From assembly GCF_001895025.1 (NCBI RefSeq), contig NZ_BCXI01000001.1, forward strand, positions 248,001 to 312,000: a stretch of DNA of 64,000 nucleotides, given 5' to 3'. Positions 49,966 through 56,820 of the stretch are shown here, piece by piece. Below the pieces are notes generated by a model. It was given only the letters and a program-made list of their open reading frames with translations, did no database searches and was not told the DNA's origin. Both the position numbers and the translations under genes were made by a program. This DNA is from Rhodococcus zopfii NBRC 100606 = JCM 9919. Its GTDB lineage: Bacteria > Actinomycetota > Actinomycetes > Mycobacteriales > Mycobacteriaceae. How positions within the stretch are numbered: position 1 is the first letter of the stretch; each line of letters opens with the position of its first letter.

Positions 49966-50820
49966 ATGTCGCACGCATCCGACCGATCCTGGCGTTCGAA
50001 CGCCACCCTCGCCCGTCTGCGCTCCGGACTTGCGACGCTCGGACCGGGAGAGCAGCGTGTCGTACGCGCCGTGCTGACCGAACCGGGGGCAGTGGTGGAA
50101 TTGTCGACCGCCGAGCTCGCGGCGGCGTCGGGCACCTCTCCGGCGACCGTCGTGCGAGCGTGCCAGCGTCTGGGCTTCCGGGGTTTTCAGCATCTTCGTC
50201 TCGAACTGGCCAGGGCCGCACCGGATTCCGACCGCGTGTCCGCGACCCCGCTGGATTCGGCGTTCGCGGCCACGACGGAGGCACTCACCGCGACCCGCGC
50301 GACCGTCGACGAAACCGGGTTCGCGCAGGTGGTGGACCTGATCGTTCGGGCTCGCCGGATCCTGCTGGTGGGCAACGGTTTCTCGTCTCCGCCGATCCAG
50401 GACGCCGCGTTGCGGTTCACCACGGTCGGCCGCAGCGCCGAGGCCCCACTCGACATTCTCGGTCAGCAGTTCTCGGCGCGACTACTGACCGGAGAGGATC
50501 TGTGCCTCGCGGTGAGCTACTCGGGCGCGAACACCCACACCCTGCGTGCATGCAGGGCCGCACGTGAGCGCGGCGCGACGATCGTGTCGGTGACGAGCTA
50601 CACGAGCACACCGTTGACGCGTCTGTCCGATCACGTGCTGTTGACCGGTGCGGGTGCGCACGAGAACGAAGCGGATTCGTTCGCGGCACGCGTGTCCCAG
50701 AGCACGATCCTGTATGCGCTCCAACGGGCCGTGCTCGAGCATCCCGAGCACGGGGGCACCGACACCGGAGCCCACGACGTGGTGGCAGACGCTCTGACCG
50801 ACGCACTCCCCGACTGTTAA
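49966..50820 (+). CDS. MurR/RpiR-family transcription regulator
   Basis: A 284-residue regulator with an N-terminal RpiR helix-turn-helix (about residues 35-80; STAELAAASGTSPATVVRACQRLGFRGFQHLRLEL) and a SIS domain (about 115-245; RILLVGNGFSSPPIQDAALRF, CLAVSYSGANTHTLRACRAARERGATIVSVTSY). SIS domains bind phosphosugars. First gene of the 50-57 kb cluster. A -10-like TAACCT is at 49902. It probably controls the cluster through the palindrome at 50890 and senses a phosphorylated sugar or related ester. Confidence 0.9.
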   Translation: MSHASDRSWRSNATLARLRSGLATLGPGEQRVVRAVLTEPGAVVELSTAELAAASGTSPATVVRACQRLGFRGFQHLRLELARAAPDSDRVSATPLDSAFAATTEALTATRATVDETGFAQVVDLIVRARRILLVGNGFSSPPIQDAALRFTTVGRSAEAPLDILGQQFSARLLTGEDLCLAVSYSGANTHTLRACRAARERGATIVSVTSYTSTPLTRLSDHVLLTGAGAHENEADSFAARVSQSTILYALQRAVLEHPEHGGTDTGAHDVVADALTDALPDC

Positions 50821-50889
50821 CCGGCGCGACGTCGCCCGTTTCGGACAAAGGGGTCAAACGTTCGATCCGTGCATCCACGATATGGCTCG

Positions 50890-50906
50890 CCGGAACAGTG
50901 TTCCGG
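50890..50906. promoter_or_regulatory. 17-bp perfect palindrome, candidate RpiR operator
   Basis: CCGGAACA-G-TGTTCCGG lies 31 bp before the start of the phosphatase fusion gene and directly after the regulator gene. A two-fold symmetric site is expected for a dimeric RpiR regulator. Confidence 0.55.
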
Positions 50907-50937
50907 ATCCAGTGGAACGGTGAACGAGAGGCGATTC

Positions 50938-52410
50938 GTGGAGTCCATCGAGGTCGACGGGGTGTTCAATGTGCGCTCGGTAGCCGGGCCGGGTCTCGCT
51001 CCCGGTCGTCTGTTCCGATCCGGCACCCTCGACCACCTGACCCCCCGGGGCCGGAACATGCTGGAGAAACTCGGGATCCGCACGGTTCTCGATCTGCGGG
51101 ATGGCACCGAGCGCCCGGAGAGCACGGCACCGGCGTTCTGGGACGTCCTGCATCATCCGCTCTACGACCCGCTCACGGGCCCGCCCCGGACCGGCGAGAT
51201 CACCGCGATCTACCGGGCATTGCTCAACGAGCGCGGCCCCGCTCTCACCGATGCCGTGCGGGCCCTCGCGGCCTCCCCCGCGCCGGTGCTCGTGCACTGC
51301 ACCGCCGGAAAGGACCGCACCGGACTGGTTGTCGCCCTGGCATTGTCCGCGGTCGGAGTGCCCGACCCGGTGATCGTCGACGACTACGCATGGTCCGGAC
51401 CCCGGGTGCGGCCGCACCGCGAGGAGGCGGTGCGGAATCTGCTCGCCGACCTGGCCCTCGACCCGGCCGAGCACACGCGGTCCGTCGAACTGCACCTGGA
51501 TTCCCCGCCGTCGGCCCTGCAATCGGCGCTCGGTCACGTCCGGCGGCGGTACGGGTCGGTGACGGGCTATCTCGAGGCTCACGGTTTCACCGCGGACGAT
51601 CTCGTCGCCCTGCGGACGCGTCTGCTCGGCGAACCGGAACTGACGGTGCTGCACCTGAGCGACGTCCATGCGAGCGATCGCCAGGATCCGTTCGTCGGGG
51701 TCGACGGCGCCGGACGGGTCCGCGCGGCCGTCGACCGGGCGTCGGCGTCGCGTCTGCGGCCCGACATCGTCGTCGTCACAGGCGATCTCGCGCATCACCG
51801 GGCGACGGCCACCTACCCGGGGCTGGTCGAGATCTTCGACGAGATCCGCAACCGCCTGGGGTGCCCGGTGCTGGCGGTGCCGGGCAACCACGACGATCCG
51901 GTGGCCTTCGCGTCGGCGTTCGGGACGCACCCGGTGGAGTACGTGCGGGGTTTCCGAGTCCTCGGTGTCGACACGAGCTCGGGAGCGCTTCCCCGGGACG
52001 AGCTCGCCCGATTGTCGCACGAGCTCGCGACCCCGGCCCCGAACGGCACCGTGCTCGTCATGCACCACCCGCCCGTGCCGTCGCCCGCCGCCACCCTGGC
52101 GGGCCGGGAGCTCGTGCGCTCCGACGAGCTCGCCGCGGTGCTGCACGGTTCCGATGTCTCGGCGATCCTCGCGGGCCATTTCCACCATCCCATGAGCGGT
52201 GTCTTCACCGGGATTCCCGTCTGGGTCGGCAGCTCCCTCGCCTACCTGCAGGACGTCGGAACACCGGGTGATTCCGTCGTCGCGTTCGACGACCCCGCCT
52301 ACTCGCTCGTGCGGTGTTCCCGCGCAGGGGTCCGCGCCCTGCCGATCGCGCTGCGCACTCCCGAGGTGCTGTTCCGGTCGAGTCCCACGCTCACCGCCAC
52401 CACCTCCTGA
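50938..52410 (+). CDS. Fused tyrosine-phosphatase-like / calcineurin-like metallophosphoesterase
   Basis: A 490-residue two-domain phosphatase. Residues 1-225 form a Cys-based dual-specificity phosphatase (Tyr_phosphatase3 type) with P-loop HCTAGKDRTG (Cys121, Arg127). Residues 234-480 form a binuclear metallophosphoesterase of the Icc/GpdQ class: DVH (242-244), GD (282-283), GNHDD (316-320), HH (376-377) and GHFHH (413-417). Both active sites look intact. GTG 50938 has AGAGG 6 nt upstream and is preferred over GTG 50920. One protein could cut a phosphodiester and then a phosphomonoester, matching the importer downstream. Confidence 0.88.
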   Translation: MESIEVDGVFNVRSVAGPGLAPGRLFRSGTLDHLTPRGRNMLEKLGIRTVLDLRDGTERPESTAPAFWDVLHHPLYDPLTGPPRTGEITAIYRALLNERGPALTDAVRALAASPAPVLVHCTAGKDRTGLVVALALSAVGVPDPVIVDDYAWSGPRVRPHREEAVRNLLADLALDPAEHTRSVELHLDSPPSALQSALGHVRRRYGSVTGYLEAHGFTADDLVALRTRLLGEPELTVLHLSDVHASDRQDPFVGVDGAGRVRAAVDRASASRLRPDIVVVTGDLAHHRATATYPGLVEIFDEIRNRLGCPVLAVPGNHDDPVAFASAFGTHPVEYVRGFRVLGVDTSSGALPRDELARLSHELATPAPNGTVLVMHHPPVPSPAATLAGRELVRSDELAAVLHGSDVSAILAGHFHHPMSGVFTGIPVWVGSSLAYLQDVGTPGDSVVAFDDPAYSLVRCSRAGVRALPIALRTPEVLFRSSPTLTATTS

Positions 52411-52448
52411 CCGCCCTCCCTCCCCGCTGTCCCACCTCAGGAGAAAAT

Positions 52449-53486
52449 GTGAAATCCCTCCCCCGTCTCGTGTCGGTCGCCGCGTTCGGCACGCTCGCCG
52501 CGTTCGGCCTCGCTGCATGCTCGGAGCCGGCCGCGTCCGACACCGACGCCTCCGCGTCGCCGTCCGCATCCGGTGGCGCGCAGACCATCACGGTCTACAC
52601 CTCCGAACCGCAGGCCAAGATCGACGAGATCGCCGCAGCATTCACCGAAGAGACCGGCATCGGCGTCGAGGTCTTCCGCGCCGGCACCGGTGATCTGACC
52701 GCCCGGATCGAGGCCGAGCGCACCACCGGTGAGATCGGCGCGGACGTGCTGCTCGCCGCCGATGCACCGACGTTCGAGGGCTACAAGTCCGAAGGGCTCC
52801 TGCAGCGGTACACACCCGCAGAGTCGGATGCGCTGAATCCCGACGTCGTCGATCCGGACGGATACTACGTGGGCACCCGGATCATCCCGACCGTCATCGC
52901 CTACAACACGACGGCAGTCGATGCGCCGCCGACCTCGTGGAAGGATCTCATCGATCCGGCCTATCTCGGTCGCGTCACTCTGCCGAACCCGAACGTCTCG
53001 GGTGCCGCGGCCTTCAACACCGCAGTCTGGCTCAACACCCCGGAACTCGGTGAGCAGTGGCTCGCGGGGCTGGCCGCGAACGAACCCGTGGTCGCCGAGA
53101 GCAACGGCCCGGTCGGGCAGGCGGTCGCGGCCGGCACACAGCCGGTCGGCATCGTCGTCGACTATCTCGTCCGGGAACTCGCGGCGAAGGGTTCGCCGAT
53201 CGCGTTGTCCTACCCGACCGACGGCGTCCCCTACGTCACGCAGCCGGCCGGCATCTTCACCGACTCCGACAATGCCGAGGCCGCACAGCAATTCGTCGAT
53301 TTCCTCGTGAGCAAGAAGGGCCAGGAGATCGCCGTCGCCCAGCGGTACCTGCCGGTGCGCGGTGACGTGGGCACACCGGAGGGCGCTCCCGCGCTGTCCG
53401 AGCTCACGTTGCTGACACCCGACCTGCAGAAGATCACGGAAACCCAGGACGAGGCAGTCCGGAAGTTCGATGACCTCATCGGTTGA
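52449..53486 (+). CDS. ABC importer substrate-binding lipoprotein (AfuA/FbpA/PhnS-like)
   Basis: A 345-residue lipoprotein with lipobox LAAC (Cys24), a Ser/Ala linker and the binding fold ITVYTSEPQAKIDEIAAAFTEETGI, EAERTTGEIGADVLLAADAP, LPNPNVSGAAAFNTA. This fold binds iron(III), 2-aminoethylphosphonate or sugar phosphates (AfuA). The adjacent phosphatases and RpiR regulator favour a phosphorylated ligand. GTG 52449 has AGGAG 7 nt upstream. The 3' end overlaps the permease start by 17 bp. Confidence 0.88.
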   Translation: MKSLPRLVSVAAFGTLAAFGLAACSEPAASDTDASASPSASGGAQTITVYTSEPQAKIDEIAAAFTEETGIGVEVFRAGTGDLTARIEAERTTGEIGADVLLAADAPTFEGYKSEGLLQRYTPAESDALNPDVVDPDGYYVGTRIIPTVIAYNTTAVDAPPTSWKDLIDPAYLGRVTLPNPNVSGAAAFNTAVWLNTPELGEQWLAGLAANEPVVAESNGPVGQAVAAGTQPVGIVVDYLVRELAAKGSPIALSYPTDGVPYVTQPAGIFTDSDNAEAAQQFVDFLVSKKGQEIAVAQRYLPVRGDVGTPEGAPALSELTLLTPDLQKITETQDEAVRKFDDLIG

Positions 53487-55137
53487 TCTCGACCCTCGAC
53501 CCGCCGCCCGGATGCCGTCCGGCCGGCGGGTCGACCCTGTCGTCGGTGTCCGGGTCGCGTTGTGGGTGTTCGTCGTCGCCGTGATCGTCGCGCCGCTCGC
53601 GACCGTCGTGTCGCTCGGCGCGAGCGGACGACACATCGGGCAACTCGTCGACGACGACATCGCCGGAGCCGCGGTGAACAGCATCGTCTCCGCGGGATCC
53701 TCCGCGCTGTGTGCCGTCGCTCTGGCGACCGCGATGGCACTGCTGCTCGACCGCACCGATCTCCCCGGTCGCGGCTCGCTTCGTCTGATCCTGTTGTCGC
53801 CCTTGCTCATTCCTCCGTTCGTCGGCGCGATCGCCTGGACGGGCCTGCTCGGCCCCAGCGGAATGGTCAACCGCTGGTGGACCGACCGCTTCGGGGACCC
53901 CCTGTGGAACATCTACGGCGGCGACGGCGTGGTGTTCCTGTTGACGGTGCATTCGTACCCCATGGCCTACCTCATCGTCTCGACCGCGCTGCGGAAGATC
54001 CCCGGCGATCTCGAACAGGTCGCGCGCATCGGCGGTGCGTCACCGTGGCAGGCGATGCGGACCGTGACGATCCCGCTGCTGCGACCGGCCCTGCTGGCCG
54101 CGTTCACCCTCACCGCAGTGGGGAATCTCGCCGACTTCGGAATTCCCGCACTGATCGGCCTGCCCGAGCGATACACGACCCTGTCGACGATGGTCTACCG
54201 CTACATCCAGTCGGGGACGGTCGACCGCCCGCTCGAGGTGGTGTCCACCATCGGTGTCGCCCTGCTGGTACTGGCGGTGCTCGCGGTGGTCGCCGATCGC
54301 CGGTTGTCACGGCGACGACGGCAACTCGACGGTCCCGTCACCGCACCCCAGCCGCTCTGCCTCGGGCGCGCCCGTGTGCCGGCGGGGATCGCCGCCTGGG
54401 GCGTCGGCCTCGCCCTGACCGTGCTGCCGATCCTCGCGCTCGCGACCCAAGCCCTGCTCCCCGCCCCGGGTGTGCCGTTGACCTGGGAGAACCTGACACT
54501 GGACAGCATCGTCGCAGCCGTGACCGCACCGGGAACCGTGGTCGGCGTCCAGAATTCGCTGATGCTGGCCGTGGGCGCCGGGGTGGTGTGCGCGGTGGTC
54601 GGACTGGCGGTCGGGGTGCTCACCACCCGCACCCGATCCCGCGACAACGCGGGTCTCGATCTGGCGGTGATGCTCCCCCAGGCGGTGCCCGGCCTCGTCA
54701 TCGCGGTCGGATGGCTCATCCTCGGCCGGTACACCGGACTGTTCGACACGCGGTGGGTGATCCTGTGCGCCTATGTCACGGCCTTCCTCGCGATCGTCGT
54801 CCAGGCCGTGCGAGCCCCCCTGTCCACCGCGTCCGAGTCGCTCGAGGAAGCGGCGCGCACATCCGGCGCATCGCGTCTGCGGGCACTGCGGGACGTGCCG
54901 TGGGCGATGACCGTGCCGGCGGCGGTGACCGGAGGCGTGCTCGTCGCCGTGACCGCGGTGCGCGAACTGACGATGTCGGTGCTGCTGGTCGCGCCGGGCA
55001 CCCAGACGCTCGGTGTGTCGATCTTCAACCTGCAGCAGGCCGGGGACTACAACGCCGCATCGGCGCTGTCCCTGCTCGTCGCCCTCGTCGGAATCGCCGG
55101 CCTCGGTGTCGCCTCAGGTTCCCGGGCGAGTCGCTGA
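53470..55137 (+). CDS. ABC importer permease, fused two-module
   Basis: A 555-residue protein with two six-helix permease modules. The EAA-type loops are LEQVARIGGASPWQAMRTVTIPLLRP-like in module 1 and LEEAARTSGASRLRALRDV in module 2, for docking to the ATPase. It begins inside the binding-protein gene (ATG 53470), showing tight coupling. It is architecturally like the permease at 17630 but clearly diverged. Predicted to move an organophosphate. Confidence 0.88.
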   Translation: MTSSVDLDPRPAARMPSGRRVDPVVGVRVALWVFVVAVIVAPLATVVSLGASGRHIGQLVDDDIAGAAVNSIVSAGSSALCAVALATAMALLLDRTDLPGRGSLRLILLSPLLIPPFVGAIAWTGLLGPSGMVNRWWTDRFGDPLWNIYGGDGVVFLLTVHSYPMAYLIVSTALRKIPGDLEQVARIGGASPWQAMRTVTIPLLRPALLAAFTLTAVGNLADFGIPALIGLPERYTTLSTMVYRYIQSGTVDRPLEVVSTIGVALLVLAVLAVVADRRLSRRRRQLDGPVTAPQPLCLGRARVPAGIAAWGVGLALTVLPILALATQALLPAPGVPLTWENLTLDSIVAAVTAPGTVVGVQNSLMLAVGAGVVCAVVGLAVGVLTTRTRSRDNAGLDLAVMLPQAVPGLVIAVGWLILGRYTGLFDTRWVILCAYVTAFLAIVVQAVRAPLSTASESLEEAARTSGASRLRALRDVPWAMTVPAAVTGGVLVAVTAVRELTMSVLLVAPGTQTLGVSIFNLQQAGDYNAASALSLLVALVGIAGLGVASGSRASR

Positions 55138-55162
55138 ACAACTCACAGATCGGAAAATCATC

Positions 55163-56260
55163 ATGTCCGCGATCACCTTGACCGGTGTCGACCTGCGTTT
55201 CCCCGATGGCACCGCAGGATTGTCCGGGATCGACCTCGATGTACGAGACGGCGAGTTCGTAGCCCTCGTCGGTCCGTCCGGCTCGGGGAAAACCACCCTG
55301 TTGCGCACCGTGGCGGGCTTCCTCGATCCCACCGCCGGGACGGTCCGGCTCGGCGACGATGTCGTCGCCGACGGCACTCGCAGCGTCCCCCCGGAGAAAC
55401 GCCGCCTGGGGATGGTCTTCCAGAACCACGCCATCTGGCCGCATCGGAACGTGGGCCGGAACGTCGCATATCCGCTGGAGATCGCGAAGATCCCCCGTGC
55501 ACGCCGCGCATCGCGGGTCGCCGAGGTCCTCGAGTTGGTGGGGCTCCCGGGCATGGAGCAGCGCGACCCGGCGACGCTGTCCGGTGGGCAGCGGCAACGG
55601 GTCGCGCTCGCAAGAGCGCTGGCGGGCCGGCCCCGCGCGTTGCTGCTCGACGAGGCGTTGTCCGCACTCGACGAGCCGCTCCGCGACCGGTTGCGTCTCG
55701 AACTGCGCACCCTCACTCGCTCCCAGCAGCTCACCGTCGTCCACGTGACACACGATCGCGCCGAGGCGCTCGCGCTCGCCGACCGCGTCGTCGTGCTCGA
55801 TCACGGCCGGATCCGGCAGGCCGGTGCGCCCGAGGACCTCGTGCTCCGCCCCCGGTCGGCCTTCGTGGCCTCGTTCCTGTCGGACGCGAACCTGCTGACC
55901 GGGCGCGTGTCGGCAGACGGTTTCGTCAGCGACGACAACACGGTCGAGGTAGGACAGGATGCCCTGCCGGACAGTGCATTCGGACCGGGCACCCTCGCGG
56001 TGCTGCCGGGCGATGTGGGATTGACGTCCCCGCAGAACGCGCTGATGCAGGGCATCGTGATGTCGTCGTTGTTCGGACGCGATGCGAGCGACGTGGTGGT
56101 CTCGTGCCGCGGAGTCGAATTCCGTTGCGCCGTGCGAGGTGTCCGCCCTGCGGTCGGCGACCGCGTGGGGGTTTCCGTCCATCGGACGCTGTTCTACCCC
56201 GCCTCCGCCGAGGTAGGAACCCGCGAAGGGGCGGACGCGCTGTCCGGGACGCGGCGATGA
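55163..56260 (+). CDS. ABC importer ATP-binding protein
   Basis: A 365-residue ATPase: Walker A GPSGSGKT (about residues 37-44), NHAIWPHRNV Q-loop region, signature LSGGQRQR, Walker B ALLLDEALSALD (DEA instead of the more usual DEP) and the switch VTHDRAEAL, followed by a TOBE-type C-terminal domain. It lies 25 bp after the permease gene; its own stop overlaps the start of the histidine phosphatase (ATGA). It completes the third component of the importer. Confidence 0.92.
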   Translation: MSAITLTGVDLRFPDGTAGLSGIDLDVRDGEFVALVGPSGSGKTTLLRTVAGFLDPTAGTVRLGDDVVADGTRSVPPEKRRLGMVFQNHAIWPHRNVGRNVAYPLEIAKIPRARRASRVAEVLELVGLPGMEQRDPATLSGGQRQRVALARALAGRPRALLLDEALSALDEPLRDRLRLELRTLTRSQQLTVVHVTHDRAEALALADRVVVLDHGRIRQAGAPEDLVLRPRSAFVASFLSDANLLTGRVSADGFVSDDNTVEVGQDALPDSAFGPGTLAVLPGDVGLTSPQNALMQGIVMSSLFGRDASDVVVSCRGVEFRCAVRGVRPAVGDRVGVSVHRTLFYPASAEVGTREGADALSGTRR

Positions 56261-56820
56261 GCATCACCCGGCTGGCTCTGGTGCGGCACGGGCGCACCGA
56301 CTGGAATCGGCGCGGCCTGTTACAGGGCAGCACGGATGTCCCGCTCGACGAGGTCGGGCGCGGACAGGCGCGCGCCGTCGCGCGTGTGCTCGAAACCGCG
56401 GTGTGGGACACCGTCGTGACCTCACCACTGTCGCGCGCCCACGACACGGGCCGCATCGTGGCAGCGCATCTGGGTATCGCAGTGGCGGGGACGATACCGG
56501 ACCTGATCGAACGCACCTACGGTGCAGCCGAGGGCCTGACCCGCGCGGACGCCGAACAGCGTTGGCCCGGAGGGGATTTTCCCGGACTGGAACCGCTCGC
56601 CGCGGTGGCCGTGCGGGGCCTGCACACACTCGGCGAGATCGTCGCGGCGCACCAGGGCTGCCGGGTCGTGGTGATCGCGCACGGCGCACTGATCCGTGCC
56701 GTGCTCGACCGCCTGTCGCCGACGCCCGCGCCGCGCATCGTCAACGGTGCGGTCAGCGAGCTCGAATGGTCGGGCCGGTGGACGGTGCGGTCCGTCAACC
56801 GCACCGCCCCTCCGGCCTGA
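56257..56820 (+). CDS. Histidine phosphatase (phosphoglycerate-mutase superfamily)
   Basis: A 187-residue enzyme with the RHG motif LVRHGRTDWN at the N-terminus, RGLLQGSTDVPLDEVGRGQA, SPLSRAHDTG and the second catalytic histidine in VVIAHGALIRA. The catalytic Glu is expected in LIERTYGAAEG. It removes phosphate from small monoesters via phosphohistidine. ATG 56257 overlaps the ATPase stop, so it is part of the importer operon and adds a third phosphatase active site to the cluster. Confidence 0.9.
   Translation: MSITRLALVRHGRTDWNRRGLLQGSTDVPLDEVGRGQARAVARVLETAVWDTVVTSPLSRAHDTGRIVAAHLGIAVAGTIPDLIERTYGAAEGLTRADAEQRWPGGDFPGLEPLAAVAVRGLHTLGEIVAAHQGCRVVVIAHGALIRAVLDRLSPTPAPRIVNGAVSELEWSGRWTVRSVNRTAPPA

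Follow-up and report, generated by a model that had tools for sequence, protein, structure and literature searches.

What does an ATP-binding cassette (ABC) importer easily labelled an iron transporter carry, if its genes lie among those of three phosphatase domains and a phosphosugar-type regulator? The question is raised by an operon at positions 49966 to 56820 of a 64,000-nucleotide stretch of Rhodococcus zopfii NBRC 100606 = JCM 9919 (contig NZ_BCXI01000001.1, positions 248,001 to 312,000 of the forward strand; hereafter the window). The operon comprises six genes with seven functions, all on the plus strand, as follows.

49966..50820, plus strand: MurR/RpiR-family regulator with a SIS domain (phosphosugar-sensing); Pfam HTH_6 3.3e-15 and SIS 1.1e-14, with SYSG at residues 184-187
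50890..50906, no strand: candidate operator, perfect palindrome CCGGAACA-G-TGTTCCGG, between the regulator and phosphatase genes
50938..52410, plus strand: phosphatase fusion, with a PtpB-like Y_phosphatase3 (YP3) domain N-terminal and an Rv0805/GpdQ-class metallophosphoesterase (MPE) C-terminal; Pfam 5.9e-49 and 6.8e-16
52449..53486, plus strand: substrate-binding lipoprotein (substrate-binding protein, SBP) of the AfuA/FbpA/PhnS structural class
53470..55137, plus strand: fused two-unit ABC permease; two BPD_transp_1 stretches, PhnU2 model 155.3 bits (cut-off 593.25)
55163..56260, plus strand: ABC ATPase of the PhnT2/UgpC/PotA class, by Pfam and NCBIfam models
56257..56820, plus strand: histidine phosphatase (HisP), branch 1; His_Phos_1 3.4e-40, motifs RHGRT and AHG

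On balance, the operon appears to couple ABC-type import of a whole organophosphate to a dedicated set of cytoplasmic processing enzymes; the most likely cargo is a phosphodiester that contains a sugar or polyol moiety. In the proposed mechanism, the SBP would use three helix ends to bind the phosphate and two acidic residues to bind the hydroxyl-bearing part, and the permease and ATPase would bring the phosphodiester in whole. The MPE domain would cut the diester to a phosphomonoester, from which the PtpB-like domain and HisP would strip the phosphate, leaving phosphate and an alcohol or sugar. The SIS domain of the RpiR regulator would sense the intermediate sugar- or polyol-phosphate and lift repression at the palindrome. 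The genes, their motifs, order and recurrence, the missing tyrosine pair and the candidate anion-site residues are observed, and from these we infer the substrate, enzyme order, operator and inducer. All the genes named in a preliminary description of this DNA (regulator, double phosphatase, lipoprotein, fused permease, ATPase and histidine phosphatase) were recovered in their places. Its picture of one tightly overlapping unit fits the SBP/permease and ATPase/HisP junctions (overlaps of 17 and 4 bp) and is slightly overstated, since overlap occurs at only two of five junctions and the remaining three are gaps of 117, 38, and 25 bp. Alignment of relatives places the start of the YP3-MPE fusion at the GTG at 50938, which is preceded by a GAGAGG stretch. 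G+C content is 0.69-0.72 throughout the locus.

Relatives of the operon were found by a scan with the SBP alignment, which returned 132, and the counts given here rest on the 80 of these that were listed (Rhodococcus, Dietzia, Millisia, Arthrobacter, and many Microbacteriaceae). Twelve were dropped from the gene-order count because a contig end lay too near, leaving 68 assessable; the count was position-based and independent of open reading frame calls. Permease and ATPase follow the SBP in 68/68, and the complete order RpiR-YP3-MPE-SBP-permease-ATPase-HisP is found in 31 of the 68, under 10 genus labels (one, Vibrio, probably wrong). Only RpiR is missing near the SBP in eight others, namely seven Arthrobacter loci and L095, in which RpiR is situated farther upstream; the sole Arthrobacter locus tested for a regulator (L116) carries a ROK gene in its stead. 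Other partial accessory sets account for 8/68. The recurrence of this order over genera means that the operon is more than a chance assembly. Among the 47 relatives with any accessory gene, MPE is present in 45, YP3 in 43, HisP in 40, and RpiR in 37, and a phosphodiester substrate is favored because MPE is the most retained of these genes. Fusion of YP3 and MPE into a single open frame is confined to [Zimmermannella] faecalis (L106) and four Rhodococcus records; the two are separate elsewhere. Clusters of non-operon neighbors span at most six genus labels, except for an open reading frame antisense to the ATPase gene (eight labels); the six-label cluster, which by eye resembles a common short-chain dehydrogenase, occurs at seven loci with both phosphatases and 11 without. 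No catabolic gene in the neighborhood points to the identity of the substrate.

The preliminary description counted three phosphatase active sites, and all catalytic motifs searched for are indeed present in the window proteins. The YP3 P-loop, HCxxGKDRTG, reads HCTAGKDRTG in the window protein and is kept in 50/50 relatives with the domain. The MPE half exhibits the metal motifs SDVH, TGD, GNHD, HHPP, and GHFH, for which the patterns DxH, GD, GNHD, HHPP, and GHxH are kept in 51, 52, 52, 31, and 49 of 52 relatives, respectively; HisP contributes the two motifs listed above. The closest Protein Data Bank (PDB) matches of the fusion are Rv0805 for the MPE half (5.1e-34) and PtpB for the YP3 half (4.7e-20). 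Further MPE matches at 5e-9 are entries that we take to be GpdQ, and the nearest solved kin of this half are presumably phosphodiesterases. Against the NCBIfam model SpdA, a 2',3'-cyclic phosphodiesterase, the MPE scores 76.6 bits (cut-off 400).

By Pfam, the SBP belongs to the SBP_bac_6 class, and it is 24% identical to AfuA over the fold. P5PA holds phosphate at three helix ends (PMC8427247), and in the predicted structure of the window SBP helices begin at T80, G185, and N219, ends that in this model appear to match, via AfuA, the three of P5PA. In AfuA, H205, D206, and E229 form the sugar motif, with H205 essential (PMC4546632); by alignment these become V237, D238, and D258, such that the full motif is absent from the SBP (the AfuA chain numbering was taken to run two ahead of that of the paper). 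In the pocket, which the preliminary description proposed to inspect for phosphate-binding Ser, Thr, or Arg, the SBP has A186 and D105 in place of the AfuA phosphate-site residues T150 and T60. The pocket was compared across 75 SBPs, 49 from loci with both phosphatases (window included) and 26 from loci with neither, six with one phosphatase being excluded. T80, S184, G185, G220, V237, and D238 are invariant throughout, and position 258 is acidic (D or E). Pocket residues are alike in the two groups, so the ligand is probably the same in loci with and without phosphatases, which would make the accessory enzymes useful and not indispensable. On a quick tree of the SBPs, with Shimodaira-Hasegawa-like approximate likelihood ratio (SH-aLRT) support only, the split between loci with and without phosphatases requires at least five changes.

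Relatives of the same phosphatases also adjoin importers of other classes. A search of plasmids with the YP3-MPE fusion returned 280 records, of which 18 regions were opened. On an Arthrobacter plasmid, YP3 and MPE relatives accompany RpiR and a CUT1-type importer; Agrobacterium and Sulfitobacter plasmids exhibit the arrangement TetR-MPE-SBP-permeases-YP3-UgpC, and Rhizobium gallicum and Sinorhizobium plasmids the Agrobacterium-type TetR-MPE-SBP-permeases-YP3 with the ATPase absent. YP3/MPE relatives stand with Opp-type importers on two Pseudosulfitobacter plasmids. An R. koreensis plasmid carries PhnCDE and YP3 with no MPE (a weak match, E 2e-6), and on an E. faecium plasmid (L032 2691-7663) a CUT1-type importer is followed by MPE in one gene run (likewise weak, E 1e-7). 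On a Microbacterium plasmid, the YP3/MPE pair follows an SBP gene, with a permease piece on the opposite strand only. In genome G105, RpiR, a CUT1-type importer, YP3, and MPE occur together. The window's own genome contains, at G000:C30 (L185 5004-8964), a second importer operon, SBP-ATPase-PhnE-YP3-TetR, organized like that of the R. koreensis plasmid; its PhnD-type SBP scores 140.6 bits (cut-off 112.05) with the phosphate/phosphite/phosphonate model, its PhnC-type ATPase 254.4 (266.1), and its PhnE 289 (216.7). The R. koreensis SBP also exceeds the cut-off of the NCBIfam phosphate/phosphite/phosphonate model, and the four CUT1-type SBPs tested have UgpB as top NCBIfam model at sub-cut-off scores; the SBP of the CUT1-type E. 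faecium importer is nearest UgpB, below cut-off. Linked regulators of sugar or phosphosugar type are RpiR or, in one Arthrobacter locus, ROK. In seven of the 18 regions opened, no YP3/MPE importer operon was found. MPE stands without an importer operon on Curtobacterium, Cronobacter, Pantoea, and Rhizobium leguminosarum plasmids, as does YP3 on plasmids of Streptomyces, Lysinibacillus (where a gene annotated as an ABC SBP precedes it), and Latilactobacillus (with a metal ABC importer two genes upstream of it). At L068, YP3 and MPE adjoin with no importer match on the 8-kb contig.

As a control, Pfam Y_phosphatase3 matches were collected from 119 genomes of the phylum, giving 41 places in 28 genomes. 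The 37 regions read cover 39 of these places, the operon itself and G422:C185 being left out; contig ends truncate seven of the 37 regions, and the position-based scan recovered every expected importer among positives with an intact importer. At these unselected loci an importer operon was found once (the PhnCDE and YP3 set of G000:C30), ATPase matches only in seven, and nothing in 29. A general link between Pfam Y_phosphatase3 and importers was tested and not found (1/37 control regions). A class-wide search of 394 genomes yielded 24 places matching the YP3 half at E <= 1e-25. The importer link is not family-wide, yet it recurs with unrelated importer classes.

Import of a phosphorylated compound, followed by its intracellular processing, best fits the evidence, and this reading is strengthened because the gene order is conserved and relatives of the enzymes stand beside other importer classes. 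Several observations weigh against it, and the claim is supported in part. The transporter occurs with none of RpiR, YP3, MPE, and HisP in 21/68 relatives, a count that also tells against the phosphodiester substrate favored by the 45/47 retention of MPE, and one transporter-only locus (G011) occupies the very same chromosomal site. The lone transporters, together with the likeness of the pockets in both groups, imply that import does not need the accessory enzymes. Cryobacterium L093 and L094 retain YP3 without MPE. Among the 24 close YP3 places, only four have a co-directional importer operon (window, G155, G392, and G105); eight adjoin an importer on the opposite strand, six have ATPase matches only, and six have none (one with RpiR). 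The invariant D105 occupies the position of AfuA T60, close to the phosphate, and is ill-suited to a phosphomonoester dianion, and fold comparison does not distinguish AfuA from binders of iron or citrate. In PDB searches, sugar binders came first for the two CUT1-type SBPs, ahead of UgpB, and peptide binders came first for an Opp-type SBP, AccA ranking far lower (3e-24); some linked regulators are TetR or GntR, of non-sugar type.

AfuABC and P5PAB resemble the operon in SBP fold, probable anion-holding helix ends, a presumed phosphorylated ligand and, for AfuA, a former iron label (PMC4546632, PMC8427247), and the window operon might likewise import a phosphomonoester such as a sugar phosphate, with MPE as a second monoesterase or a cyclic-phosphate enzyme. 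We consider this possible and rather unlikely: the position of the essential H205 is an invariant V237, D105 takes the place of T60, and MPE is kept slightly more often (45/47) than the monoesterases YP3 (43) and HisP (40). The two known systems differ further in that the window operon adds phosphoesterases and RpiR. Salvage of nucleotides or 2',3'-cyclic nucleotides, by import, Rv0805-like opening, and dephosphorylation to a nucleoside, is suggested by the closeness of MPE to Rv0805 and its sub-cut-off SpdA score; it seems improbable given the RpiR/SIS regulator and recurrent neighbor clusters in which, judged by eye, no nucleoside gene was noticed. The preliminary description ascribed the iron-transport label to homology, and in the SBP the adjacent tyrosine pair (Y195/Y196 in FbpA) is absent, as alignment with HitA puts Tyr-Tyr on Y239-L240, and residue 239 is Ser in 10/49 phosphatase-linked SBPs. 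With phosphatase linkage also extending across many genera, we give very little credence to a ferric iron or metal-chelate transporter among unrelated phosphatase genes.

An importer of aminoethylphosphonate or another phosphonate would account for the top NCBIfam models of the SBP, permease, and ATPase (phnS2, PhnU2, and PhnT2) and for PhnJ in the genome, where a related phosphatase also adjoins a PhnCDE importer. Such a function is highly unlikely, as all three proteins fall well short of the equivalog cut-offs (122.3 of 392.75 bits for PhnS2, 155.3 of 593.25 for PhnU2, and 277.8 of 457.7 for PhnT2), no phosphonatase scores above cut-off in the genome, and three phosphate-ester hydrolases would be useless for a C-P bond. 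In Ugp systems with GDPD, a glycerophosphodiester is imported and hydrolyzed intracellularly. The SBP and phosphodiesterase families of such systems differ from those of the window operon, in which no UgpB or GDPD match at E <= 0.001 was found among the six proteins and the ATPase scores 263.4 against UgpC (cut-off 432). Elsewhere in the host genome, a GDPD gene adjoins a CUT1-type importer distinct from that of the operon, which may already serve the common glycerophosphodiesters, and an ordinary Ugp-GDPD function at this locus was rejected on both grounds. Fragments of two other SBPs encoded in the genome received no NCBIfam name.

Among known systems, the import of an intact phosphodiester followed by cytoplasmic processing, as favored here, is most like the Acc system of Agrobacterium, in which an intact sugar phosphodiester enters via an ABC importer and meets the cytoplasmic phosphodiesterase AccF, the putative phosphatase AccG, and the regulator AccR (PMC4526662). 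Acc works in the order proposed here with another transporter class, and AccR senses the sugar phosphate that the diesterase frees rather than the diester itself (PMC4526662). As an SBP, AccA is of Opp type; the window operon has an AfuA-class SBP (SBP_bac_6) and RpiR. GpxB and UgpB belong to PhnT- and CUT1-family importers that carry glycerol phosphates (PMC12718374), and relatives of the window phosphatases adjoin importers of both families; the SBP family of GpxB and UgpB differs, and the word "phosphatase" is absent from the text of that paper. Xanthosan is likewise a sugar phosphodiester nutrient taken up and opened intracellularly, by XanT-XanP, which are a TonB receptor and a 2H phosphoesterase of other protein families (PMC12807533). 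No account of the operon was found in the open-access literature searched.

If the proposed function is true, a family of importers that readily attracts iron or phosphonate labels would instead serve organophosphate uptake in many Actinobacteria, both soil-dwelling and host-associated. Finding the phosphatase pair next to an importer of any class would then flag organophosphate uptake in a genome and would point to phosphodiesters so far unrecognized as nutrients. A broader proposal, which we put forward tentatively and with some doubt, is that YP3 and MPE form a portable "import and strip" cassette which, in Actinomycetota and Alphaproteobacteria, ABC importers of unrelated classes have recruited time and again. 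The pair would then mark small phosphodiesters of sugars or polyols, whether agrocinopine-like or derived from membranes, that serve as nutrients and form an unrecognized pool in nature.

The assignment of the palindrome at 50890-50906 as an operator is suggestive only. Six Rhodococcus genomes, which are related, share the pattern CGGAAC-N3-GTTCCG, its distance from the regulator stop agreeing to within one base; equally good palindromes occur in 56 of 571 112-nt tiles of the window, and in 27/38 rows from other genera no palindrome was found at the corresponding place. One further exact copy exists in the genome, around which (L232) a scan for the operon gene families found none. The palindrome CGGAACCGAGTTCCG (either strand) is present at one or two sites in eight same-genus genomes, away from the operon, e.g., at G005:C2:4387699.

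Both flanking genes and the permease were searched in 18 same-genus genomes, that of the window included, and the flanks adjoin on one contig in 13. The site is empty in seven of these, with ~13-121 bp separating the matched flank stretches, and holds the full operon in four (window, G003, G014, and G016). G011 has the transporter alone there, and in G015 the site holds 1.6 kb without a match to the operon gene families. In the other five genomes, the flanks lie on separate contigs (two) or one flank is unmatched (three). The permease is present in 5/18 genomes (E <= 1e-60). The locus is thus a site of gain or loss within a conserved block, as the preliminary description had surmised in calling the operon an interruption of an otherwise conserved chromosome block.

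Further arrangements were observed among the relatives. In the Rhodococcus clade with a lone transporter (L078-L091), the transporter is repeatedly accompanied by a MarR-like gene (13 loci) and by an MFS-like gene, and in seven loci by a CopC-like gene, all named by eye. The record L121, titled Vibrio cholerae strain 35D, carries a Microbacteriaceae-type operon whose SBP groups with Microbacterium; the record is probably mislabelled or contaminated. At L206 (7884-13901), a close MPE follows, downstream, SBP, ATPase, and permease genes arranged in a different order, the SBP being of the same broad class. At eight places in genomes of one family (code f39; L071, L189, L191, L192, L193, L195, L196, and L199), a YP3 gene stands next to an opposite-strand importer of Opp/Dpp type, possibly a second arrangement of the same logic. 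On a Sphingomonas plasmid (L215 3482-6696), a Y_phosphatase3 gene immediately follows a TonB-dependent receptor gene.

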